A stretch of DNA of 10,874 nucleotides from an uncultured Burkholderiales bacterium (GTDB lineage: Bacteria > Pseudomonadota > Gammaproteobacteria > Burkholderiales > Burkholderiaceae), in contig CALBEV010000126.1 of the NCBI GenBank assembly GCA_937891045.1, forward strand, positions 1-10,874, read 5' to 3'. Of this stretch, positions 410 to 10,874 are shown one piece after another (the stretch's first letter is position 1; each line of letters opens with the position of its first letter). The notes under the pieces were generated by a model. It was not told the origin of the DNA, did no database searches, and worked only from the letters and a program-made list of their open reading frames with translations. The translations under genes and the position numbers were made by a program.

Positions 410-847
410 TCAGGCTTTCAAAGCCAGATCATGGCGCACCAGAGGGTAGCCACGGTCAGCGTAATGCTTCCAACGCAGACGGGCCATGGCGCGGTCTTGC
501 TCATCATGGGTTACCACTTCAATGACTTTTTCAAAGGTTTCAAATCCACTGAGCAACGTTGAGCCAAGGTTCAACAACACCTGGTGGTGCGGCAAACCAG
601 CAGGTACTTGGTCACCCTGGACCAGCACCACGGGGGTATGTTGCAAGGTGATGGCATCGGCACTGGCCAAGCAATGCGGCACAAAGGCGGTGGCCGAGAA
701 GGTCCACAGGGCCGCATCCAAGTCGACCATCAAGTCGTCTGTGCCCATGACCACCACTTGGGCGGAATTGCTGCAAGCCTTGCGCAACAAGCGACAGGCG
801 TAACTCAGTTTGTCGGGCGCGTTGAAATGAAAAGCCACCTCGGTCAT
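410..847 (-). CDS. holC: DNA polymerase III chi subunit (HolC)
   Basis: The chi subunit belongs to the clamp-loader complex of the replicative polymerase. In the known family it binds psi (HolD) and the C-terminal tail of single-stranded DNA-binding protein, helping the clamp loader act at SSB-coated lagging strands. The 145-residue product has the family's usual size and typical features: an N-terminal strand (TEVAFHFNAPDKL), the segment YACRLLRKACSNSAQVVV, an LDAALWTFS helix start near residue 43, the FVPHC patch, and a C-terminal half with PVVLV and LLNLG. It is cytoplasmic and has no catalytic motif. The start ATG overlaps the pepA stop as ATGA, so expression probably depends on translational coupling to pepA; I see no strong ribosome-binding site of its own. 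The pepA-holC order is widely conserved in gamma- and betaproteobacteria and supports the call. Confidence 0.9.
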   Translation of the reverse strand: MTEVAFHFNAPDKLSYACRLLRKACSNSAQVVVMGTDDLMVDLDAALWTFSATAFVPHCLASADAITLQHTPVVLVQGDQVPAGLPHHQVLLNLGSTLLSGFETFEKVIEVVTHDEQDRAMARLRWKHYADRGYPLVRHDLALKA

Positions 848-2352
848 GCGCTTGTCAGCCCAGCATCAACGGCGCTTGGTGGCCGGTTTGCGCTGCGTTT
901 GGTCGACTTGGTGGCCGTCGGTGTTTGTGCCATGAGGTAGGCCAGCAAGGAGGGCACGGGCCGACCGGTGGCGCCCTTGGCAGCGCCACTTTTCCAAGCC
1001 GAGCCCGCGATGTCCAAGTGCGCCCAAGGGTAGTCTTTGGTGAATCGCTGCAAGAATTTGGCCGCCGTGACAGAACCAGCAGAACGATCGGCCACGTTGG
1101 CCACATCGGCGAAGTTGGACTTCAGCCCTTCCGCGTATTCATCATCCAAGGGCATGCGCCAGCACAAATCGAGGCTTTGTTCCCCAGCGGCCAACAGCTG
1201 TGCGGCCAAGGATTCGTCGGTGGCGTACAAGCCGCTTCGCAAATGACCCAGCGCAATGACGCAAGCACCTGTGAGGGTGGCAATATCGATGACGGCACGA
1301 GGCTTGAAGCGTTTGGCATAGGTGAGCGCATCACACAAGACCAAGCGGCCTTCGGCGTCGGTGTTCAAAATCTCGATGGTTTGACCACTCATGCTGGTGA
1401 CCACGTCCCCGGGCTTCAGGGCTTTGCCGCCCGGCATGTTTTCGCAAGCGGGAATCAGGCCGACGACGTTCAAAGCTGGCTTCAAGTGCGCCAAGGCTTC
1501 AAAGGTGCCCAACACGCTGGCCGCACCGCACATGTCGAATTTCATTTCATCCATGCCGGGGCCTGGTTTCAATGAAATGCCACCAGTGTCAAAGGTGATG
1601 CCCTTGCCCACCAGCACCACCGGCGCTTGGGTGGCGGCTGCGCCCTTGTAATGCAAGATGATGAAGCGCAGGGGCTGGGCCGACGCTTGGGCCACAGCGG
1701 CGAAAGTGCCCATGCCCAAACGCTCCACTTCTTTCAGACCGAGCACTTGGCAGCTGATACGCGCATGCTTGGCCAATCCCTTGGCCGCTTGGGCGAGATG
1801 ATCTGGTGTCGCATGGTTGGCGGGTCGGTTACCCCATTCGCGGGCGAGTGCCACACCGGCCATTTGGGCTTGGGCCACGGCGAAATCAGGTTTGGCTTGG
1901 GTTGCATTGGGGACACCCAGCACCACTTTAACGATGGTTTGCGCTTTGGCACTGGGCTTGGTAGCGGTGTAGACGTAGCTGGCGTCAGCAGCAGCTTGGG
2001 CTGCCACCACCAGGTGCTCGGCTTGATCAGCAGACAAGCACAGCGTGACGCTGGCGGCTTTGGATTTCTTCAAAGCGGTGATGGCGGCTGTGACACCTGC
2101 GCGTACATCGGCGGCACGGCCTTCACCAACACCAACAAGCACCAAACGCAAGGCTTTGAGGCCCGGAGGTTTCCACCACAACAGGCATTGACCGGCGGCA
2201 GAGGAGAAATCGCCTGACTTTTCCGCTTGTGCCAGCATGTTGGCAATCAGGCCTGTTTGGACTTGCGAAGATTTCGAGACCAAGACCACCAAAGCATCGG
2301 TTTTGGCCGATGCCGCCTGCGCCCAAGAGAGGGTCTGAAGTTCCAAGTTCAT
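844..2352 (-). CDS. pepA: Leucyl aminopeptidase (PepA, peptidase family M17)
   Basis: Cytosolic di-metal aminopeptidase that removes N-terminal residues from peptides. In E. coli the homologue also binds DNA in Xer recombination and carAB control; whether that applies here is not visible. The 502-residue product has an N-terminal macro-like domain (about 1-165) and a C-terminal catalytic domain. Metal ligands and catalytic residues are all present: K250 and D255 in GKGITFDTGG, K262, D273 in FDMCGAA, and D332, E334 and R336 in the NTDAEGRL signature. I place the start at the ATG at 2350-2352 because AAAAGG (2359-2364) lies 6 bases upstream. An in-frame TTG at 2365-2367 would make a five-residue-longer protein but abuts that ribosome-binding site and is unlikely. 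It is first in a leftward set with holC and the 105-residue gene, and divergent from lptF. Confidence 0.96.
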   Translation of the reverse strand: MNLELQTLSWAQAASAKTDALVVLVSKSSQVQTGLIANMLAQAEKSGDFSSAAGQCLLWWKPPGLKALRLVLVGVGEGRAADVRAGVTAAITALKKSKAASVTLCLSADQAEHLVVAAQAAADASYVYTATKPSAKAQTIVKVVLGVPNATQAKPDFAVAQAQMAGVALAREWGNRPANHATPDHLAQAAKGLAKHARISCQVLGLKEVERLGMGTFAAVAQASAQPLRFIILHYKGAAATQAPVVLVGKGITFDTGGISLKPGPGMDEMKFDMCGAASVLGTFEALAHLKPALNVVGLIPACENMPGGKALKPGDVVTSMSGQTIEILNTDAEGRLVLCDALTYAKRFKPRAVIDIATLTGACVIALGHLRSGLYATDESLAAQLLAAGEQSLDLCWRMPLDDEYAEGLKSNFADVANVADRSAGSVTAAKFLQRFTKDYPWAHLDIAGSAWKSGAAKGATGRPVPSLLAYLMAQTPTATKSTKRSANRPPSAVDAGLTSA

Positions 2353-2358
2353 AATCTG

Positions 2359-2364
2359 CCTTTT
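2359..2364 (-). promoter_or_regulatory. Ribosome-binding site deciding the pepA start
   Basis: On the minus strand this reads AAAAGG, 6 bases before the ATG at 2350-2352. It is the reason for choosing that ATG over the TTG at 2365-2367, which directly abuts it. Confidence 0.7.
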
Positions 2365-2373
2365 CAATTGCTT

Positions 2374-2402
2374 AGTATGTTATTCCATTCCTCCATCCGC
2401 AA
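2374..2402 (-). promoter_or_regulatory. Candidate pepA promoter overlapping the lptF start
   Basis: On the minus strand a TTGCGG box (2397-2402) is separated by exactly 17 bases from CATACT (2374-2379). They match the sigma70 consensus at 3 and 4 of 6 positions. Transcription would begin near 2367, leaving a leader of about 15 bases that still contains the AAAAGG ribosome-binding site. The -10 box would overlap the lptF ATG. This is weak but positionally consistent; with only 24 bases (2353-2376) between the divergent start codons, promoters must lie inside one gene or the other. Confidence 0.3.
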
Positions 2403-3483
2403 CGAGTTGTCCCGCTATTTCTGGGCAACCTTGGTGGTCTTGACGACCATCGTGTTGACGGTGTGGCTGATTCGCACTTTTGGTGATGCCTCATTTGGGC
2501 GTATCAGTTTGGAAGACGTGAGCTTGGTGCTGGGCTACACCATGCTTAGCAACCTGCATTCCTTGCTGACGCTCAGCCTGTATGTGGCCACGGTGTCCAC
2601 CTTGTCGCGCATGTACGCCGACAGTGAAATGGTGATCTGGCAGGCCAGTGGCCAAAGCACCTTCAAACTTCTGCGCCCGACCCTTTTGTTTGCCCTGCCC
2701 TGGTTGTTGGCGATCATTGTCTTGACGTTGTTTGCTTGGCCATGGTCCAACCAGCAAATCTTTGAAGTGCGCGAGCGGTTTGAACAACGTGGTGACTTGG
2801 AGCGCATACAACCCGGCTTGTTCCAGGAGTCGGCCGATGGCAAACGCGTTTTTTTCATCGACAAATCCAGCGCTTCTCAAGGCCAAGGCAACCAGATATT
2901 CATTGTTGCCAACGAGAACAACACACAAACCATTGTGAGCTCGCAAACCGGACTGGTGGAAAACCGGATGGGCAACCGTTATTTGGTTCTCAGTAACGGT
3001 CAGCGGATAGAAATCAATGCCGAAAAAAATGAATTCCGGGTCGTGGAATTCGATACCTATTCTTCCTTGGTTGATATCAAACCGATGCAAACAAGCTTGC
3101 AAGATGCCCAGGCCAAGCAACCACAAGAATTGATCGCCAACCTCACGCCTGCCAGCAAAGGCGAGTTGACCTGGCGCATCGGCATGATCGTTGCTGCTGT
3201 CAATCTCTTGTTGTTGGCCATTGGCATCCCCTTTATCAACCCACGCAGTGGTCGCTCGGGTTCGTTGATGTTGACCTTGGTCAGCTTTTTCACCTATTAC
3301 AACTTCGTCAACATGAGCCGCAACTGGGTGGTGGTGGGCAAACTCGGCATGACCGATATGCTGTTGGCATTGCACTTGCCGGTGTTTGTGTTGGCCTGTT
3401 TGATTTTGCTTTGGCGTGCCCAGCAAGGCATGGTGTTCAAGCGCAGCCGCCGAATGCCTGGCCTGCAAGGACAACCCACATGA
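2377..3483 (+). CDS. lptF: LPS export ABC transporter permease LptF
   Basis: LptF pairs with LptG as the inner-membrane permease of LptB2FG, which extracts lipopolysaccharide from the inner membrane and pushes it along the LptC-LptA bridge to the outer membrane. The 368-residue product has the family layout: a short cytoplasmic N-terminus (MLFHSSIRNELSRYF), three membrane segments at about 13-35, 50-72 and 99-120, a large periplasmic beta-jellyroll region from about 125 to 270, and three further segments at about 273-291, 300-320 and 332-352. The coupling-helix region SRMYADSEMVIWQASGQ between segments 2 and 3 is the conserved stretch expected to contact LptB. The frame is open further upstream, but ATG 2377 matches the family N-terminus and avoids pepA. 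No strong ribosome-binding site is visible. The stop overlaps the lptG start. Confidence 0.95.
   Translation: MLFHSSIRNELSRYFWATLVVLTTIVLTVWLIRTFGDASFGRISLEDVSLVLGYTMLSNLHSLLTLSLYVATVSTLSRMYADSEMVIWQASGQSTFKLLRPTLLFALPWLLAIIVLTLFAWPWSNQQIFEVRERFEQRGDLERIQPGLFQESADGKRVFFIDKSSASQGQGNQIFIVANENNTQTIVSSQTGLVENRMGNRYLVLSNGQRIEINAEKNEFRVVEFDTYSSLVDIKPMQTSLQDAQAKQPQELIANLTPASKGELTWRIGMIVAAVNLLLLAIGIPFINPRSGRSGSLMLTLVSFFTYYNFVNMSRNWVVVGKLGMTDMLLALHLPVFVLACLILLWRAQQGMVFKRSRRMPGLQGQPT
3467..3471 (+). promoter_or_regulatory. Ribosome-binding site for lptG inside lptF
   Basis: AAGGA lies 8 bases before the lptG ATG at 3480 and within the last codons of lptF. It supports that ATG and tight coupling of the two permease subunits. 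Confidence 0.6.
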
Positions 3484-4592
3484 AAACCTTGCGCCGAATG
3501 ATGTACCAGGAAATTCTGTCGAAGGTGATTTTTGTCACCTTGGGATTTGTTGGTTTGTTCTTTTTCTTCGACTTGGTAGAAGAACTCAAGCGCATTGGCC
3601 AAGGTCCCGGCGGCGCCTACAACATGCGACACGCCCTGATGTACGTGACGCTGCAAGTGCCCAACCATGTTTACGAGTTGATGCCCATCACTGTGCTGAT
3701 TGGCACCATCTTTGTCATGGCACGCTTGGCACAAAGCTCGGAATTCACGATTTTGCGCACCAGCGGTTTGGGGCCATTCAAGGCCCTGCGTCTGCTGCTT
3801 GAAATGGGTTTGCTCTTCGTGGTGGTCACCTTTTTAGTCGGCGACTATTTGTCACCCATGGCCAGTCGGCAAGGTCAGTTGCTCAAAGCCAAGTACTTGG
3901 GCGTGACCATCAGCTTGGGGACATCAGGCGCTTGGCTGAAAGAGTCCCAAGGCGACAGATCCAATGTGGTGAATGTGGCCGCACTCAGCAACGACGGACA
4001 GTTGGCCGGTGTGCGGGTATTTCAATTTGATGCCGCCGGCCGCTTGAGCGGCATGCTCATGGCCGCGCAAGGCTCGTTTTCGCCAGATGGGCAATATTGG
4101 CAGTTGCGATCGGTTCAAACAGACACCTTCAAACCGCTTGACACCTCGAACCAAAACATCGAGCGCTCGGTGCTGGACAGCTACAACTGGCCCAACAGCC
4201 TGACCGAGGACATGGTGTCGGTGGCCTTGCTCAAGCCCGAGCGCATGGCCACCATCGACTTGTTCAATTACATCCAGCACCTGAACAACAACGGCCAAGC
4301 CTCACAGCGCTATGAAATCGACTTTTGGAAGAAAGTGTTCTACCCCATGAGTTGCTTGGTGATGGTGATTTTGTCCTTGCCTTTTGGTTACTTGCACCTG
4401 CGAAACACCAACATGAACAGCATGGTGTTTTTGGGCGTGATCATTGGCTTGAGTTTCATTTTGCTCAACAATTTGTTTGGCTTTGTGGGCAACCTCAACG
4501 CTTGGTCGCCTTGGCTGGCGGCTGCCACCCCCGGCATTGTTTACATGACGGCATCCTTGCTGGCTTTTGGCTGGCTGGTTCTGAGGCATTGA
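3480..4592 (+). CDS. lptG: LPS export ABC transporter permease LptG
   Basis: Second permease subunit of LptB2FG. LptF and LptG form a heterodimer whose lateral gate admits LPS, powered by cytoplasmic LptB. The 370-residue product begins MKTLRRMMYQEI, with membrane segments at roughly 13-30, 58-80, 100-118, 283-300, 309-330 and 342-362. The periplasmic jellyroll lies between segments 3 and 4 (about 125-270). The region ARLAQSSEFTILRTSGLG (about 81-98) is the conserved cytoplasmic coupling segment. The ATG overlaps the lptF TGA as ATGA, which suits 1:1 synthesis of the partners. Length and order match the conserved lptF-lptG pair. lptA, lptB and lptC are not in this window. The chelatase gene follows 2 bases after the stop. 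Confidence 0.95.
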   Translation: MKTLRRMMYQEILSKVIFVTLGFVGLFFFFDLVEELKRIGQGPGGAYNMRHALMYVTLQVPNHVYELMPITVLIGTIFVMARLAQSSEFTILRTSGLGPFKALRLLLEMGLLFVVVTFLVGDYLSPMASRQGQLLKAKYLGVTISLGTSGAWLKESQGDRSNVVNVAALSNDGQLAGVRVFQFDAAGRLSGMLMAAQGSFSPDGQYWQLRSVQTDTFKPLDTSNQNIERSVLDSYNWPNSLTEDMVSVALLKPERMATIDLFNYIQHLNNNGQASQRYEIDFWKKVFYPMSCLVMVILSLPFGYLHLRNTNMNSMVFLGVIIGLSFILLNNLFGFVGNLNAWSPWLAAATPGIVYMTASLLAFGWLVLRH

Positions 4593-4594
4593 CG

Positions 4595-4960
4595 ATGAAA
4601 TCGATTGTTTTGTTTGCGCATGGGTCACGCGACCCACTTTGGCACCGCCCCATGCAAGCCGTGGCCGAGCGTGTGGCCGCCCTGCAACCAGATGTGGCCG
4701 TGGCCTGCGCCTACTTGGAGCTGAGCACCCCCTCCTTGAGCGACGCGGTGGCCGCGTTGGTGCGCCAAGGTTGCACCCAGGTGCGGGTGGTGCCCATGTT
4801 TTTGGGCGTGGGCAAGCATGTGCGCGAAGACCTGCCGGTGATGCTGCAAGCCTTGCGGGATGCCCACCCCGATGTGGCGTTCGAGCCCCTGCCCGCGGTG
4901 GGAGAACACCCAGATTTACTTGATTTGCTGGCCCAGATCGCCATCGCCAACCCCAGCTAG
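4595..4960 (+). CDS. cbiX: Short CbiX/SirB-type sirohydrochlorin chelatase
   Basis: Members of this family insert Co2+ or Fe2+ into sirohydrochlorin, giving the cobalamin precursor or siroheme. The product is only 121 residues, the half-size single-domain form; such forms work as homodimers, whereas longer CbiX and CbiK proteins carry two such domains. The N-terminal signature FAHGSRDPLW puts a metal-binding histidine at residue 9, and VVPMFLGVGKHVREDLP supplies the second at residue 75. These are the two histidines expected in the family. The protein is cytosolic. The ATG is 2 bases after the lptG stop and GAGG at 4583-4586 is 8 bases upstream, so it probably shares the lptFG transcript. The neighbouring cysB suggests siroheme for sulfite reductase as the relevant product, but sequence alone does not settle iron versus cobalt. 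Confidence 0.88.
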   Translation: MKSIVLFAHGSRDPLWHRPMQAVAERVAALQPDVAVACAYLELSTPSLSDAVAALVRQGCTQVRVVPMFLGVGKHVREDLPVMLQALRDAHPDVAFEPLPAVGEHPDLLDLLAQIAIANPS

Positions 4961-4986
4961 GCGTGGGGGGCTTACCCCTGGCAAAA

Positions 4987-5012
4987 GGCATAATGAATGC
5001 CTTTCTTATGCC
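4987..5012 (+). promoter_or_regulatory. Candidate operator in the cysB leader
   Basis: A perfect 7-base inverted repeat, GGCATAA-N12-TTATGCC, has arms at 4987-4993 and 5006-5012. A second nested dyad, GGCAT-N5-ATGCC, spans 4987-5001. ATGCC recurs at 4997, 5008 and 5017, close to helical phasing. LysR-family regulators bind dyads containing a T-N11-A core and often repress their own genes, so CysB itself is a plausible binder. That is inference; the gap between cbiX and cysB is only 61 bases. Confidence 0.4.
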
Positions 5013-5021
5013 ATTAATGCC

Positions 5022-5942
5022 ATGAACCTGCACCAATTTCGCTTTGTCCAAGAGGCGGTTCGCCGCAACCTCAACCTGACCGAAGTGGCCAAAGTGCTGC
5101 ACACCTCGCAGCCCGGCGTGTCCAAAGCCATTCTGGAGTTGGAAGGCGAGTTGGGCATCGAGATTTTTGGCCGCCATGGCAAGCGCTTGAAGCGCGTCAC
5201 CGAGCCCGGCGAGCATGTCTTGAAAAGCATTGACATCATCTTGCGCGAGGTGAGCAACTTGAAGCGCATTGGCGAGCAGTACAGCGCCCAAGACTCGGGC
5301 ACCTTGTCGATTGCCACCACCCACACCCAAGCCCGCTATGTGCTGCCCCTGCCCGTGGCACAACTGCGCAGCGCCTACCCGAATGTGAACATCAGCCTGC
5401 ACCAAGGTGCGCCCGATCAAGTGGCCCGCATGGTGTTGGATGAAACCGCTGAAATTGGCATTGCCACCGAAAGCCTGTCGGACTACCCCGAGTTGATCAC
5501 CCTGCCCTGCTACGAATGGCAACACGTGCTGGTGCTGCCCGCCGACCATCCGCTGGTGAACGTGCCGGACCTGCAACTGAGCGACTTGGCGAACGAACCC
5601 ATCATCACCTACCACCCCTCGTTCACCGGCCGCACCCGCATCGACAAAGCCTTTGCAGCACTGCACCTGTCGCCGCGCATTGCCCTGGAAGCGATTGACT
5701 CGGACGTGATCAAAACCTATGTGCGACTGGGTTTGGGCGTGGGCATCGTGGCCGAGATGGCGGTGCGTGACATCACCGACACCGACCTGGTGGTGCGCCC
5801 TGCCGGTCATTTGTTTGGCCACAACTTGGCGCGTATTGCCTTCAAACGCCACGCGTATTTGCGCCAGTTTGTGTATGAGTTTGCGCAGTTGCTCAACCCC
5901 GAGTTGAACGCCGAGAGGATTGCGGCGTCGGTGGCGCATTGA
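5022..5942 (+). CDS. cysB: LysR-family transcriptional regulator CysB
   Basis: CysB activates sulfate and thiosulfate uptake and reduction genes in response to N-acetylserine or O-acetylserine and represses its own gene in studied bacteria. The 306-residue product begins MNLHQFRFVQEAVRRN, with the winged helix-turn-helix at about 1-60 (LTEVAKVLHTSQPGVSKAILELE, then IFGRHGKRLKRVTEPG). The linker helix follows (about 63-88), then the effector-binding domain from about 93. There TTHTQARYVLP is the CysB/Cbl-specific ligand loop, with HQGAPDQVARMV and the second-lobe motif TYHPSFTGRTRIDKAF. The N-terminus matches the beta-proteobacterial CysB form closely, so I prefer CysB over Cbl. Other nearby ATGs (5008, 5017) are out of frame. 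No strong ribosome-binding site is visible. It follows the chelatase gene in the same direction and converges on the HigA-like gene 19 bases away. Confidence 0.92.
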   Translation: MNLHQFRFVQEAVRRNLNLTEVAKVLHTSQPGVSKAILELEGELGIEIFGRHGKRLKRVTEPGEHVLKSIDIILREVSNLKRIGEQYSAQDSGTLSIATTHTQARYVLPLPVAQLRSAYPNVNISLHQGAPDQVARMVLDETAEIGIATESLSDYPELITLPCYEWQHVLVLPADHPLVNVPDLQLSDLANEPIITYHPSFTGRTRIDKAFAALHLSPRIALEAIDSDVIKTYVRLGLGVGIVAEMAVRDITDTDLVVRPAGHLFGHNLARIAFKRHAYLRQFVYEFAQLLNPELNAERIAASVAH

Positions 5943-6333: not shown

Positions 6334-6573
6334 ATGTCGTCCATCACCGTACGCAACATTCCTGAAGAAACACATCGTGCATTGCGGGTTCGGGCCGCGA
6401 TGGCCGGAAGGAGTACCGAGGCCGAAGTACGCGCCATCCTTGAAAGCGCGGCCCGGCCAGACGACCGCGTCAAACTGGGTTCATTGCTGGCCGAAATTGG
6501 GCAGCTGGCTGGTGGCGTAGATCTGATGATTGAACGCGACAAAACACCCACTGAACCGCTGAGCTTCGAATGA
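6334..6573 (+). CDS. fitA: FitA-type ribbon-helix-helix antitoxin
   Basis: Antitoxin of a FitAB (VapBC-superfamily) module. It neutralises the PIN-domain toxin encoded next to it and, with the toxin, represses its own promoter. The 79-residue product starts MSSITVRNIPEETHRALRVRAA. SSITVRN (2-8) is the DNA-contacting beta strand and about 9-45 form the two helices, including AGRSTEAEVRAILESA, which closely follows the pattern known for FitA. The C-terminal part (about 50-79, VKLGSLLAEIGQLAGGVDL) should be the toxin-binding tail. I chose ATG 6334 because GGAG (6324-6327) is 6 bases before it; ATG 6328 directly abuts that site. The stop overlaps the toxin start as ATGA, the usual arrangement for coupled synthesis. 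A sigma70-like promoter and dyad operator precede it. Confidence 0.9.
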   Translation: MSSITVRNIPEETHRALRVRAAMAGRSTEAEVRAILESAARPDDRVKLGSLLAEIGQLAGGVDLMIERDKTPTEPLSFE

Positions 6574-6995
6574 TTCTGCTTGACACCAACGTCATCTCTG
6601 AGCCTATCAAGCTTGGAGGCGATGCGAAGGTTTTAGCTTGGCTGGACGCCCAGTTGATCGAAACACTGTATTTGTCCACGATCAGTTTGGCTGAGTTGCG
6701 TTTTGGCATCGCAAGCATGCCAGCAGAAAAGAGAAAAAGCACACTTCACAGTAGCCTAGAGCAACGCATCTTGCCCTTGTTTGTGGGCCGAATCTTGGCC
6801 TTTGATGAAGCAACGACCGAAGCTTATGCAGCGCTGCGAGCCTTAGCAAGGGCACAAGGCCAAGCGATTACAGCTGCAGATGGCTATATTGCGGCAACCG
6901 CGATTCAACATGGCTTGATGGTCGCTACACGTGACACTGGCCCCTTTGAGGCAGCAGGCCTGACCGTCATCAACCCTTGGGTTTTGCCTCAATGA
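6570..6995 (+). CDS. fitB: FitB-type PIN-domain toxin (VapC superfamily RNase)
   Basis: Probable Mg2+- or Mn2+-dependent endoribonuclease held inactive by the upstream antitoxin. The 141-residue product has the full PIN acidic quartet: D5 in LLDTNVISE, E42 in SLAELRFGI, D104 in ITAADGYIAA and D122 in ATRDTGPF. To my recollection these are the same positions as in gonococcal FitB. The length is that of an intact toxin, with no frameshift or missing residue. The ATG lies inside the antitoxin stop (ATGA). The RNA target cannot be told from sequence; studied VapC toxins cut tRNAs or the rRNA sarcin-ricin loop, while gonococcal FitB was linked to slower intracellular growth. Flanking housekeeping genes suggest a chromosomal module acquired between cysB and hrpA. 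Confidence 0.92.
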   Translation: MILLDTNVISEPIKLGGDAKVLAWLDAQLIETLYLSTISLAELRFGIASMPAEKRKSTLHSSLEQRILPLFVGRILAFDEATTEAYAALRALARAQGQAITAADGYIAATAIQHGLMVATRDTGPFEAAGLTVINPWVLPQ

Positions 6996-7023
6996 TTCAA
7001 CTGCCCCCAAGCCTTTTAGCTTC

Positions 7024-7054
7024 GACTCACATGCCTTTCAGGCAGATGTGAGTC
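7024..7054. terminator. Candidate bidirectional terminator hairpin between fitB and hrpA
   Basis: GACTCACAT (7024-7032) pairs perfectly with ATGTGAGTC (7046-7054), and inside it GCC (7033-7035) can pair with GGC (7041-7043) beyond a two-base bulge. It lies midway in the 79-base gap between the convergent ends of fitB and hrpA. Neither strand has a strong T run after the stem, so termination may be weak or factor-assisted. The placement favours a shared terminator over any other role. Confidence 0.5.
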
Positions 7055-7074
7055 TGCGCTGAAAAGCCAGAGGC

Positions 7075-10000
7075 TCATTGCGAAAGCTGAGCCCAAGCTT
7101 TTTCAAGCCTCTTGATACTCACTGGCTGCGGGGTCCGCAGTTCTTGCGCGAAAAAGCTAACCCGCAGTTCTTCCAATAACCAACGGAATTCCAGCATCCG
7201 CGCGTCGGTTTGGCCTTTGCGCTCGGCCACCAGGCGCCAATACTTTTGCTCCAGCGGTTTCAGCTCGGTCAGGCGTTGGGCGTCGCGGCTGGGGTCGGCG
7301 CGGTATTTGTCCAGCCGCAGGGTGATGGCCTTCAGGTAGCGGCCGTAGTGCTGCAACTGCGGCCACGGGGTGGCGGCCATGAAGTGTTTGGGCATCAGGC
7401 GTTGCAGTTGTTGGGCGCAGTCGGCGGTGGCGTCGGGCGCGTTTTTCGTGTCCTTGATCTTGCGGGCGGCCGCGCCAAACTCCAACAATATGCCGCCAGC
7501 CAGCCGCGCAACTTCGTTGGCAATCAGGGTCAAGCGCCCTCTGCCCTCGTCCACGCGGCGCTTGAAGCTGGCCTCGTCGTTGGGCAGCGGCTCGAGCAAA
7601 AACGCGCGTTCTAGCGCCACGTCCAAAATCTGCTGCTTCAGTTCTTCCGAGGTGCCGCCGCCCGCGCCCTCGGGCGTCTTGCCCACCAGCATGTAGGCCA
7701 CGGTCATTTTTTGCAGGTCGGGGATGTTTTTTTCCAGGTACTTGAGGGCGTCTTTGATTTGCAGCGCAAACAGGCGGCGCAGACCAGCGCGGTGCTTGGT
7801 GGCGGCGAGGTCGGGCTCGTCAAACACCTCGATGCTGACGGCGTCGCCCAGGTCCACCAAGGCGGGAAAGCCGATGAGGGATTGGCCGCCTTTGCTGATT
7901 TCCATCAGCTCGGGGAGTTCGCCGAAGGACCAGGTGGTGTGGTGTTGGCTGGAGAGATTGGGGGTAGAGGACGGTTTGGTTTTGAAATTGGGGTCAGAGC
8001 CCGAGTTTTGCTTCGCAAAATCGGGATCCGACCCCAAATTCCTCTGGTCTGCCCCCGAACTCTTGCCTGAGTTTTGCGCTTTCGCCGACTTGGCGAAGTT
8101 GGGGTCAGAGCCTGCTTTAGATGCTTGATTGAAATTGGGGTCAGAGCCCGAGTTTTGCTGCGCAAAATCGGGGTCTGACCCCAATTTCGAAAAGCCCGTC
8201 TTCTGCGGCTGAGCCAAATCGGGATCTGACCCCAATTTCTCATCGGCGAGCGATTTCACCTTCAGGCCAGCCAGGGCTTGGAAGGCGCCGCGGGCCTGGG
8301 CGCCGAGTTCGGCTTTCAGGGCGCTGAGGTTGCGGCCCTGCCCCAGCTGGCGGCCGTGTTCGTCCACCACTTTGAAGTTCATGAAAAAGTGGGCGCTCAG
8401 CATGTCGAGTTTGAAGTCGGTGCGTTTGATGTCCAAGCTGGTTTCATCGCGGGCTTTTTTCAGCAGAACATCGGTCAAGCCGCCTGCGCCAAACACCTCG
8501 GGTGAAGACAGTGCTTGAGCCAGTCGGGCGGCGCTCTCGGGCAGGGGCACAAAGCGGCTGCGGGGGCGCTGCGGCAGGCTTTTCAAAAGCGCCTGAATCT
8601 TGTCTTTCAACATGCCGGGCACCAGCCACTCGGCGCGGTCGTCGCTCACTTGGTTCAGCACAAACAAGGGCACGGTCACGGTCAGGCCGTCTTTGCTGTC
8701 GCCGGGCGCATGCAAATACTGGGCGGCGCAGTCCACGCCACCTAAGCGCACCATTTTTGGAAAGGCTTGCGCGGTGATGCCCACGGCCTCGTGGCGCATC
8801 AGGGCTTCGCGGGTCATGAGTAGCGGCTCGGTCTGGTCGCCCGCTGCGCTGCGGCGGCGGCTTTCATCGCGGTGCCAGCGCTCCAGGGTTTTGCAGCTGC
8901 ACACGTCCTCGGGCAGATGCTGTTCGTAAAACGCTTGGATCATGGCCTCGTCCACCAGCACGTCTTGGCGGCGCGATTTGTGTTCAAGCTCCATCACTTG
9001 GGCCATGAGTTTTTTGTTGGCGGCCATGAAGGCCAGCGGTGTTTGCCACTGCGCCTCCACCAGCGCTTCTCGAATGAAAATTTGCCGCGCCAACACCGGG
9101 TCGGCTTTGGCATAGGGCACGCGGCGCCCGCTGTACACCACCAGGCCATACAGGGTGGCGCGTTCAAAGGCCACCACATCGCCGTGCCGCGCTTCCCAGT
9201 GCGGGTCCAGAAGTTGTTTTTTCAAGAGGTGCGCCCCCACCTGCTCCAGCCATGTCGGCTCGATGTTGGCCATACCTCGCCCAAACAGGCGCGTGGTTTC
9301 CACCAGCTCGGCGCACACCAACCACTTGCCGGGCTTCTTGCGCAAATGCACCCCCGGGTGGCGGTGGAACTTGATGCCACGTGCGCCCAAGTAAATGTCT
9401 TCTTCGTCTTGCTTCCAACCGATGTTGCCCAGCAAGCCGCTCAACATGCTCAGGTGCAGTTGCTCATAACTGGCCGGCTTGTCGTTGATGGTCCAGCGCT
9501 GTTCTTTCACCACCGTCAGCAACTGGCTGTGCACATCACGCCACTCGCGCCAACGGCGGATGTTGATGAAGTTTTGCCGCAGCAGGTTGTCGTGTTGGCG
9601 GTTGGAAAGTTTGTGCTTGGCGCCGGTGGCGCTGGCAGCTGCGTTGCCCTTTTTCAATGGGCCAGCACCTGCTTCTGGCGTCGTGGCAGCGCCCTCCCCG
9701 CCACGCGAAGCTTGCAGCCAATCCCACAGGCGCAAATAGCCGCTGAACTCGCTCTTGTCGTCCTTGAACTTGGCATGTGCTTGGTCGGCCTGGGTTTGCG
9801 CTTGCAAGGGGCGGTCGCGCACGTCTTGCACGCTCAGCGCCGAGGCAATGATCAGCACCTCGTGCAGGCTTTGCTGCTCGCGGGCCGCCAAGATCATGCG
9901 CCCCACGCGCGGGTCCAGGGGCAGCTTGGACAGCTCGTGGCCAATGGGCGTCAGGCTGTGGTCTTCGGTCACCGCGCCCAACTCGTTCAGCAACTGAAAA

Positions 10001-10874
10001 CCATCCGAAATCGCTTTGGGCCGAGGCGCTTCCAAAAACGGAAAGTCGGCCACATCGCCCAGGCGCAAAGACATCATCCGCAAAATCACGCCCGCCAAAG
10101 AGCTGCGCAAAATTTCGGGCTCGGTGAAGCGCGGGCGGCCGTTGAAATCTTTCTCGTCATACAAGCGAATGCAAATGCCATCGGCCACCCGGCCACAGCG
10201 GCCAGCGCGTTGGTTGGCAGCGGCTTGGCTGATCGGCTCCACCAACAATTGCTCCACCTTGCTTCTGAAGCTGTAGCGCTTCACGCGGGCCATGCCTGCA
10301 TCCACCACATAGCGGATGCCGGGCACGGTGAGCGATGTTTCGGCCACGTTGGTGGCCAGCACGATGCGCGGTGCGCCGCCGGTTTCAAACACCCGCTCTT
10401 GCTCGGCCTGCGACAGCCGTGCAAACAGCGGCAGCACCTCAACATGACGGGTGTAGGCGTTGTGCGCCAAGTGGCCGCGCAGGTGGTCGGCGGCATCGCG
10501 AATCTCGCGCTCGCCCGGCAAAAACACCAAGATGTCGCCACGTGGTGCGCCGGTCCACAGCTCGTCCACCGCGTCTGCAATGGCATTGCCCAGATCGTGC
10601 TCGCGGGTTTCTTCCCAGGGGCGGTAGCGCATCTCCACCGGAAACGTGCGGCCCGACACCATCAGCACAGGCGCGGGGCCTTTGGCCGAGGCGAAGTGCT
10701 GGGCAAATCGGTCGGCGTCGATGGTGGCCGAGGTGACGATGATTTTCAGATCGGGGCGGCGCGGCAAGATTTGGCGCAAATAGCCCAGCAAAAAATCGAT
10801 GTTCAAACTGCGTTCGTGTGCCTCGTCAATGATGAGCGTGTCATAGGCCAGCAGCAGCGGATCGGTTTGCGTTT
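7075..10874 (-). CDS. hrpA: ATP-dependent RNA helicase HrpA, N-terminus outside window
   Basis: DEAH-box RNA helicase. HrpA has been connected with mRNA processing and rescue of stalled ribosomes in E. coli. About 1265 C-terminal residues are visible; the Walker A motif and first roughly 130-160 residues lie beyond the right edge. Visible residues 16-19 are DEAH (10816-10827), followed by TSAT (47-50), the motif V segment TNVAETSLTVPG and motif VI QRAGRCGR. Then come the HA2/ratchet region (LGAVTEDHSLTPIGHELSKLPLDPRVG), the OB-like part (LLGNIGWKQDEEDIYLGARG) and the long DUF3418 C-terminal domain ending at QLSQ. Two insertions relative to E. coli stand out: an alanine- and glycine-rich linker (about 9603-9713), and a run of GSDP-type repeats (about 7984-8239) just before the conserved TTWSFGELPELME. 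The frame stays open throughout, so the gene looks functional. It converges on fitB. Confidence 0.95.
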   Translation of the reverse strand, partial: TQTDPLLLAYDTLIIDEAHERSLNIDFLLGYLRQILPRRPDLKIIVTSATIDADRFAQHFASAKGPAPVLMVSGRTFPVEMRYRPWEETREHDLGNAIADAVDELWTGAPRGDILVFLPGEREIRDAADHLRGHLAHNAYTRHVEVLPLFARLSQAEQERVFETGGAPRIVLATNVAETSLTVPGIRYVVDAGMARVKRYSFRSKVEQLLVEPISQAAANQRAGRCGRVADGICIRLYDEKDFNGRPRFTEPEILRSSLAGVILRMMSLRLGDVADFPFLEAPRPKAISDGFQLLNELGAVTEDHSLTPIGHELSKLPLDPRVGRMILAAREQQSLHEVLIIASALSVQDVRDRPLQAQTQADQAHAKFKDDKSEFSGYLRLWDWLQASRGGEGAATTPEAGAGPLKKGNAAASATGAKHKLSNRQHDNLLRQNFINIRRWREWRDVHSQLLTVVKEQRWTINDKPASYEQLHLSMLSGLLGNIGWKQDEEDIYLGARGIKFHRHPGVHLRKKPGKWLVCAELVETTRLFGRGMANIEPTWLEQVGAHLLKKQLLDPHWEARHGDVVAFERATLYGLVVYSGRRVPYAKADPVLARQIFIREALVEAQWQTPLAFMAANKKLMAQVMELEHKSRRQDVLVDEAMIQAFYEQHLPEDVCSCKTLERWHRDESRRRSAAGDQTEPLLMTREALMRHEAVGITAQAFPKMVRLGGVDCAAQYLHAPGDSKDGLTVTVPLFVLNQVSDDRAEWLVPGMLKDKIQALLKSLPQRPRSRFVPLPESAARLAQALSSPEVFGAGGLTDVLLKKARDETSLDIKRTDFKLDMLSAHFFMNFKVVDEHGRQLGQGRNLSALKAELGAQARGAFQALAGLKVKSLADEKLGSDPDLAQPQKTGFSKLGSDPDFAQQNSGSDPNFNQASKAGSDPNFAKSAKAQNSGKSSGADQRNLGSDPDFAKQNSGSDPNFKTKPSSTPNLSSQHHTTWSFGELPELMEISKGGQSLIGFPALVDLGDAVSIEVFDEPDLAATKHRAGLRRLFALQIKDALKYLEKNIPDLQKMTVAYMLVGKTPEGAGGGTSEELKQQILDVALERAFLLEPLPNDEASFKRRVDEGRGRLTLIANEVARLAGGILLEFGAAARKIKDTKNAPDATADCAQQLQRLMPKHFMAATPWPQLQHYGRYLKAITLRLDKYRADPSRDAQRLTELKPLEQKYWRLVAERKGQTDARMLEFRWLLEELRVSFFAQELRTPQPVSIKRLEKAWAQLSQ
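7984..8042 (-). repeat. Palindromic repeat element, full copy 1, in frame in hrpA
   Basis: A near-palindrome able to fold end to end. On the plus strand the outer arm GAAATTGGGGTC faces GACCCCAAATTCC, an inner CCCGA(G)TTTTGC faces GCAAAATCGGG, and the loop is TTC. It matches full copy 2 at about 53 of 57 positions. Read in hrpA it encodes LGSDPDFAKQNSGSDPNF. The symmetry and the GGGGTC...GACCCC core resemble REP or small MITE-like dispersed elements; the family assignment is inference. Confidence 0.75.
8043..8094 (-). repeat. Possible degenerate repeat copy between full and half copies
   Basis: This segment contains TCTGCCCCCGAAC, reminiscent of TCTGACCCCAATTT in the full copies, and a GAGTTTTGCG piece like the inner arm. 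In hrpA it encodes SAKAQNSGKSSGADQR, in which SGAD echoes the GSD units. It may be an eroded copy, or simply linker sequence. Confidence 0.35.
8095..8114 (-). repeat. Half copy of the palindromic element (outer-arm type)
   Basis: On the plus strand GAAGTTGGGGTCAGAGCC differs by a single base from the left arm of the full copies, but the matching right arm is missing. In hrpA it encodes AGSDPNFA. It looks like a partial duplication or eroded remnant. Confidence 0.6.
8131..8188 (-). repeat. Palindromic repeat element, full copy 2, in frame in hrpA
   Basis: The best-preserved copy. GAAATTGGGGTCAGA (8131-8145) is perfectly complementary to TCTGACCCCAATTTC (8174-8188), giving 15-base arms. Inside, CCCGA-G-TTTTGC pairs with GCAAAA-TCGGG around a TGC loop, leaving one bulged G and a G-G mismatch. 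The whole 58 bases can form one long hairpin in DNA or in hrpA mRNA. The coding strand reads LGSDPDFAQQNSGSDPNF. The perfect arms suggest this is closest to the founding element. Confidence 0.8.
8214..8239 (-). repeat. Half copy of the palindromic element (right-arm type)
   Basis: On the plus strand AATCGGGATCTGACCCCAAT within this span matches the right half of the full copies apart from one base; the left half is absent. It encodes LGSDPDLA in hrpA and is the repeat nearest the N-terminal side of the protein insertion. Confidence 0.6.

Follow-up and report, generated by a model that had tools for sequence, protein, structure and literature searches.

Palindromic REP-family repeats read in frame in the HrpA linker and in other proteins of freshwater Burkholderiales bacteria

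The analysed window is a 10,874-nucleotide stretch of DNA that contains a partial hrpA gene (positions 7075–10872, reverse strand), which encodes a DEAH-type RNA helicase with a C-terminal DUF3418. The N-terminal end of the protein lies outside the window, and the open reading frame provides the C-terminal 1265 residues, with the Helicase_C, HA2, OB, and DUF3418 domains. The ordinary neighbours at positions 410–5942 are HolC, an M17 aminopeptidase, two LptF/LptG permeases, CbiX, and a LysR regulator. A PIN-domain protein, presumably VapC-like, is encoded at positions 6570–6995, between the LysR regulator and hrpA. The repeat-derived insert spans positions 7984–8238 on the reverse strand, which correspond to residues 879–963 of the partial HrpA, and is located in the linker before the TTWSFGELP segment. 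The Rfam scan of window positions 7000–9000 yielded no match. As a stand-in for the rest of the genome we used G001, the nearest genome compared, in which 22% of the 31-letter words sampled from the window recur; the HrpA of locus L061, taken as that of G001, is 96% identical to the window HrpA in the best tblastn segment.

All the repeat copies of the insert lie on the reverse strand, and they are given here in the order in which hrpA is read. The first half copy, a single REP at positions 8214–8239, is read as KLGSDPDL and is followed by REP dimer 1 (8131–8188), the most symmetrical copy, which is read as KLGSDPDFAQQNSGSDPNF. Next come the second half copy (8096–8118), also a single REP, read as AGSDPNF, an eroded copy (8046–8077), read as QNSGKSSGADQR and recognised by a weak core match TCTGCCCCCG at 8048–8057, and REP dimer 2 (7984–8042), read as NLGSDPDFAKQNSGSDPNF. 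The half copies were identified by repeat and core-pattern searches, and the palindromic dimers by repeat search, translation, and folding. Sixty-nucleotide copies at positions 7982–8041 and 8129–8188 are 93% identical to each other. The core pattern TTGGGGTCNGANCC, with up to two mismatches, has 11 matches in the window, all between positions 7988 and 8235, whereas 1.17 were expected and none of 200 shuffles reached 11.

Dimer 1 contains inverted arms of 25 nucleotides (8131–8155 and 8164–8188) that are 92% complementary, and as single-stranded DNA it folds with −28.5 kcal/mol (z −11.86; none of 200 shuffles as good) into a hairpin, the outermost 15 pairs of which are without a break. The corresponding values for dimer 2 are −20.5 kcal/mol and z −6.08, again with none of 200 shuffles as good. 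The middle stretch at 8043–8130 folds weakly (z −2.54; 2 of 200 shuffles as good), and the isolated half 8164–8188 has a fold z of −1.95 (12 of 200). The frame is open across the whole cluster, and six GSDPD or GSDPN units are read from position 8238 down to 7984. An earlier sequence-only reading had described the two near-perfect palindromes, one of them with 15-base perfect arms, two half copies and possibly an eroded one beside them, and six GSDP(D/N) units uninterrupted by a stop or frameshift; its coordinates and symmetry proved right in the repeat search and folding, and the smaller copies, the open frame, and the unbroken outer pairs agree with it.

The dimer consists of two REPs of about 23 nucleotides in inverted order, has the centre TTTTGCnnnGCAAAA and arms with GGGGTCNGANCC, and makes one hairpin of 46–58 nucleotides. 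Both arms read Gly-Ser-Asp-Pro in one phase because the core GGGTCNGACCC equals its own reverse complement. For the same reason a copy in the opposite orientation has an almost identical translation, with KLGSEPEFCCAKSGSDPN in place of KLGSDPDFAQQNSGSDPN. The protein repeat thus follows from a DNA palindrome with a self-complementary core. The second phase of the dimer, NWGQTPILRSKTRALTPI, is open as well, and the third phase has a stop. Inverted copies are present in the HrpA linkers of P0003 and P0006, in MetG, and in the HrpA helicase loop of G722. Each half of the window dimers is a REP of the GGGGTCAGA family, which supports the REP-like DNA origin proposed from the sequence. We consider it very probable, judging from sequence comparisons, that the HrpA insert is a cluster of palindromes of this family, which reached the linker as hairpin DNA and persisted there because the reading frame runs through it.

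The searches that located further genic loci, by DNA pattern or similarity, took no account of reading frame, but their query was of the genic type. Dimers are in frame in the HrpA linker, the HrpA helicase loop, UvrA, MetG, IcmF, MmeI-type methyltransferases, and AMP nucleosidase, and single or spaced REPs are present in DnaE and AtuA, so that in-frame copies occur in eight unrelated proteins; a molybdopterin oxidoreductase contains a dimer of another phase. The helicase-loop dimer of HrpA sits after the Walker A motif (LGRG...RRQIIGHTQPRR), that of MetG precedes the tRNA-binding domain, that of IcmF is inside the MeaB-like GTPase, and those of the MmeI-type methyltransferases are positioned shortly before NPPF. 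Pfam confirms the domains of the decorated IcmF-type mutase, MmeI, UvrA, MetG, AMP nucleosidase, HrpA helicase, DnaE, and AtuA. The reading of REP-like DNA in frame, proposed earlier for HrpA, is supported. Expansion of GSDP units at the protein level, by replication slippage in a disordered linker with the palindrome as a by-product, would suit the varying unit number of the HrpA linker and its simple, hydrophilic peptide. We regard it as very unlikely, since the same kind of DNA element occurs in unrelated proteins and in inverted copies, its arms change in a complementary fashion, and members lie outside long open reading frames and beside a transposase, as described below. The copies in UvrA, MetG, IcmF, and MmeI contradict slippage as the sole cause, and slippage may still add units to the linker.

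The use of reading phases was compared among 62 distinct dimers from loci L155–L238, the last 20 of which were hand-picked from the 84-genome listing; most CACG-type dimers fall outside the pattern. Of the 52 dimers that have an open GSDP phase in one or both orientations, 49 lie in a reference gene, as opposed to 2 of the 10 in which it is closed (Fisher p 2e-6, a generous value because the reference gene set came from the same loci, the query was of the genic type, and the copies are related). Among the genic dimers, 48 of 51 have a core length of 1 modulo 3, and among the others 4 of 11. The strict claim that the GSDP phase alone is in use was rejected: it is broken by L177, L187, L214, and L227, and by single arms in L218 and L238. 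Other phases are read in the molybdopterin oxidoreductase of L177, in GltB of L187, and, in part, in the HrpA of L214, L218, L227, and L238. Matches in the IcmF of L205 (NSGVS) and in the HrpA of L211, L224, and L228 (FSGRP or QELRT) were ascribed to chance.

Filled and empty sites were found side by side among relatives. Sixteen UvrA loci were readable (28 analysed, 30 fetched), and the site is filled in five of them (G756, G757, G744, G741, and G005), eroded in G745, and short and empty in ten, G723 and nine others. Among the eight readable MetG loci (22 analysed, 25 fetched) there are two dimers (G017 and G037), a single REP (G025), and five empty sites. A separate search identified further MetG inserts in G765, G743, G007, and G023, which show that both orientations are present at the MetG site. 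G722 has an inverted dimer in the HrpA helicase loop, where its relatives have another short sequence; several short helicase-loop sites resemble eroded REPs rather than virgin sites. The HrpA of G017 contains a degenerate copy of the element.

The states of both HrpA sites were placed on a quick tree of 64 rows, built with both linkers removed and with its forks left open. For the linker, scored in four states over 53 rows, at least eight changes are required, or at least five for GSDP presence alone, and for the helicase loop at least eight over 43 scored rows; the first pass gave at least six and seven changes, respectively. G734 and G760 were scored as 'none' in this count despite LQKSS/SQKSL variants of the G722-clade palindrome described below. 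Relatives devoid of the insert had been anticipated by the sequence-only reading, and close relatives indeed have empty UvrA and MetG sites. The solved full-length HrpA 9ggr, which we take to be the E. coli protein, has 2 and 10 residues at the helicase-loop and linker sites in the alignment, in comparison with 58 and 119 in the relative P0003. This fits a tolerated loop and the short spacer that the sequence-only reading ascribed to E. coli HrpA.

The pairing of the two arms was evaluated in 42 of 44 distinct 46-nucleotide cores, with L171 (shifted pairing) and L223 (chance-like core) left out; some of the 42 are outside confirmed genes (L163, L165–L167, L170, L189, and L120). In this set, 94.2% of cells are paired compared with 90.4% in shuffles, and 28 cells are changed on both arms compared with 6.6, values reached by none of 500 shuffles, in which the relatedness of the copies remains. 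Pairs with a change on both sides number 7, against 4.0 in shuffles (2 of 500 reach), and further pair types show no excess among the 42 cores (13 against 12.2; 198 of 500 reach). When the partner is slid by 1–3 columns, the paired cells fall to 16–56%. The element is accordingly an inverted doublet hairpin with compensatory changes, as are REPINs. These figures point to retention of the hairpin as nucleic acid, although separate insertion of different perfect subtypes would look the same as upkeep of the hairpin in place.

The core pattern TTGGGGTCNGANCC is present in 29 of 61 genomes, comprising G001 and 60 relatives. G018 has 179 strand matches (92 forward and 87 reverse) and none for the reversed-pattern control; because a perfect palindrome matches on both strands, these represent approximately 90 places. 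G001 has 113 strand matches with up to one mismatch, as opposed to 17 for the control, so that in both genomes a short palindrome is repeated across the genome, as expected of REPs. A search with the 62-nucleotide element detected it in at least 25 of 84 genus genomes at E 1e-5 and in at least 27 of 299 family genomes at E 1e-3; both are lower bounds, since at most 11 and 3 candidates per genome, respectively, were scored. In an even sample of 399 genomes across the order, only 3 yielded the exact core GGGGTCNGANCCCGANTTTNGC, which therefore defines a narrow subfamily. All four of its copies in G001 are in genes (one in the HrpA loop, two in the HrpA linker, and one in IcmF), which departs from the predominantly extragenic location of REPs and REPINs. 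Sister variants in G001 lack a spanning open reading frame of at least 150 codons at 10 of the 17 sites examined. The expectation of many intergenic copies elsewhere in the genome is compatible with the sister variants, most of which are outside long open reading frames, and fails for the exact subfamily.

The family core GGGGTCAGA is present in 38 of the 55 Y1-transposase loci fetched and missing from 17. After 12 loci were set aside, as IS200-like best matches, fragments, or, in one case, below the cut-off, it is present in 37 of 43, compared with a mean of 1.5 and a maximum of 4 in mononucleotide shuffles. Several of the loci have TTAATTGGGGTCAGAnnCCAATTAA on both sides of the gene in inverted orientation, and five such transposases match NCBIfam REP_Tyr_transpos with 73.7–82 bits, two of them reaching the cut-off of 80. 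With GGGGTCAG, the element provides GGGGWSAS inverted repeats beside a Y1 transposase, as in the TIRYT group. The centre of the transposase-flanking REPs is AATTAA, whereas that of the genic REPs is GATTTTGC, and no RAYT flanked by the genic centre type was found among the 55 loci. The suggestion of a Y1/RAYT neighbourhood is supported at the level of the family core. The REPs beside the G007 transposase (L040/L302) contain the variant GATACC, which is also found in both arms of the hrpA helicase-loop dimers of G007, G037, and G765 (L228, L229, and L232); at the level of sequence, the variant offers a lead on a cognate enzyme and element. No GATACC REP was seen at the G765 transposase locus.

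The hrpA linker also accommodates other repeats. The linker could be read at 44 of the 56 named HrpA loci; of these 44, 9 contain GSDP repeats (some degenerate), 4 a VIASEAKQ-type translation of CGTCATTGCGAGCGnAGCGAAGCAA (L278, L279, L293, and L113), 1 the peptide SPFGRG/PHPNPPPAGEG with two short palindromes, and 30 no recognised repeat. The VIASEAKQ repeat is of the CGTC type and unrelated to the GSDP element, although it occupies the same linker. G008, G026, and G732, taken as three of the four VIASEAKQ loci, have 29, 14, and 17 matches of the CGTC-type repeat, in comparison with 0 or 1 in six other genomes, the linkers of which are without it. The linker of L107, with SPFGRG...PHPNPPPAGEG, contains CCCTCTCCCTTTGGGAGAGGG and CCCTCCCCCAGCGGGGGAGGG and is another palindromic stretch in frame, presumably the translation of a common repeat. 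A different palindrome, with 16-base arms GATGCGGGGCAGCGGG and CCCGCTGCCCCGCATC (some copies with a mismatch), is read as DAGQRAPHASQKSSPAAPHRS in the hrpA linker of the G722 clade (L246, L248, L249, L260, L269, and L295). A one-arm search with up to one mismatch matched 7 of 16 genomes; both arms are in hrpA in five of these, one arm is at the hrpA locus of G742, and a lone match in G012 is elsewhere.

The restriction of both arms of the G722-clade palindrome to hrpA in those five genomes is what would be expected if palindromes were made in place, by template switching at quasi-palindromes in tolerant linkers and spread by gene conversion without transposition, and strand switching would also be compatible with a copy that is inverted at its site. 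As the origin of the GSDP insert this is nevertheless unlikely, since the GGGGTC element has one consensus common to several genera and a link to a transposase, and the CGTC repeats of the linker follow the genome-wide copy number.

Under the preferred reading, in which REP hairpin DNA entered hrpA, a transposase would move or template copies in trans as single-stranded hairpins. Insertions with a stop, a frameshift, or an unsuitable peptide would be purged, and the survivors would mainly be those read in the hydrophilic GSDP phase in exposed loops. The copy number of the linker may then shift as new copies insert, existing ones recombine with each other, and old ones erode. Both the translation of the insert and the mobility of the element by a transposase are predicted from sequence, and the interpretation offered by the sequence-only reading appears largely right and is supported in part. 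That the inserts are selected modules tuning the decorated proteins, as Di Nocera et al. speculated for repair genes, is scarcely credible here. The gene list leans towards enzymes acting on nucleic acids (UvrA, MetG, MmeI, DnaE, and HrpA, the last at two sites), and several lineages have inserts at the same positions, but the presence of inserts differs between close relatives, copies erode, unrelated families take one site in different relatives, and metabolic enzymes are also decorated (IcmF, AMP nucleosidase, and AtuA). The HrpA protein probably gains nothing from the insert, and the linker is probably a tolerated, putatively disordered spacer.

The REPIN and RAYT work is said to be that of Bertels and Rainey. 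The REPINs and RAYTs characterised in the relevant parts of PMC3116915 are similar to the present element in that they comprise inverted REP doublets in a hairpin, compensatory changes, and a RAYT gene nearby, the last feature being shared here at the level of the family core; they are described there in extragenic space, whereas the exact subfamily here is mostly in genes. In-frame intragenic REPs were described in 2013 by Di Nocera et al. (PMC3733652). In the portions of that paper considered here, GTAG and CGTC REPs and TIRYT inverted repeats, like the present element, are short palindromes, single or dimeric, in frame inside genes, many of which function in repair or replication, with RNA helicases in one species. 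GGGGWSAS is common to the TIRYT inverted repeats, and GGGGTCAG conforms to it. Its main text, supplements apart, does not contain the words hrpA, Rhodoferax, Polaromonas, or Burkholder-. The present case differs from those portions in that a single family is traced through orthologues, some of which have empty sites, and in its inverted copies, its one dominant reading phase, and the paired changes of its arms. Subclass 2.1 of TnpAREP, probably the TIRYT group according to the section of PMC6006769 used here, likewise contains Y1 transposases, most of them flanked by GGGG[AT][CG]A[CG] inverted repeats; the C-terminal HTH domains mentioned in that section were not detected by Pfam in five RAYTs here. 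The Rickettsia palindromic elements, as outlined in part of PMC3767692, are palindromic repeats in frame inside proteins, in solvent-exposed regions. The present inserts are also in-frame palindromes inside proteins, which upholds the likeness noted earlier, while the Rickettsia elements are 100–150 bp long and belong to another host, a comparison made by description alone. In-frame intragenic REPs are therefore, on the passages cited, not new in kind (PMC3733652, and earlier the Rickettsia elements, PMC3767692). No description of a GSDP REP family in HrpA or in genes of this bacterial group was found in the literature searched, mostly by title.

A broader reading is possible, which we put forward tentatively and would not yet call probable. 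A gene-dwelling REPIN lineage may have arisen when the stop-bearing centre AATTAA changed to the stop-free GATTTTGC...GCAAAA, its length being such that the two arms share a phase. Such an element would give almost the same hydrophilic peptide whichever way round it is read and could persist inside proteins, and the HrpA linker would be a landing pad common to unrelated resident REP families. The inserts are a well-sampled case, in freshwater bacteria, of hairpin repeat DNA turning into coding sequence, and a single data set combines filled and empty sites, inverted copies, and arm covariation. It can now be tested whether the inserted stretches are neutral as spacers, what determines the sites at which REP elements land, and whether a core with the same reading on either strand gives a palindrome an advantage within genes. 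Conserved-looking database stretches such as GSDPDFAKQNSGSDPNF call for caution, as they are probably repeat DNA and not protein domains. Two public metagenome-assembled genome records, named Bordetella parapertussis (L082) and Rickettsia typhi (L087), contain hrpA that is 89% and 92% identical, in the best segment, to the freshwater Comamonadaceae HrpA of the window, and the names or bins of these records are therefore likely to be wrong.
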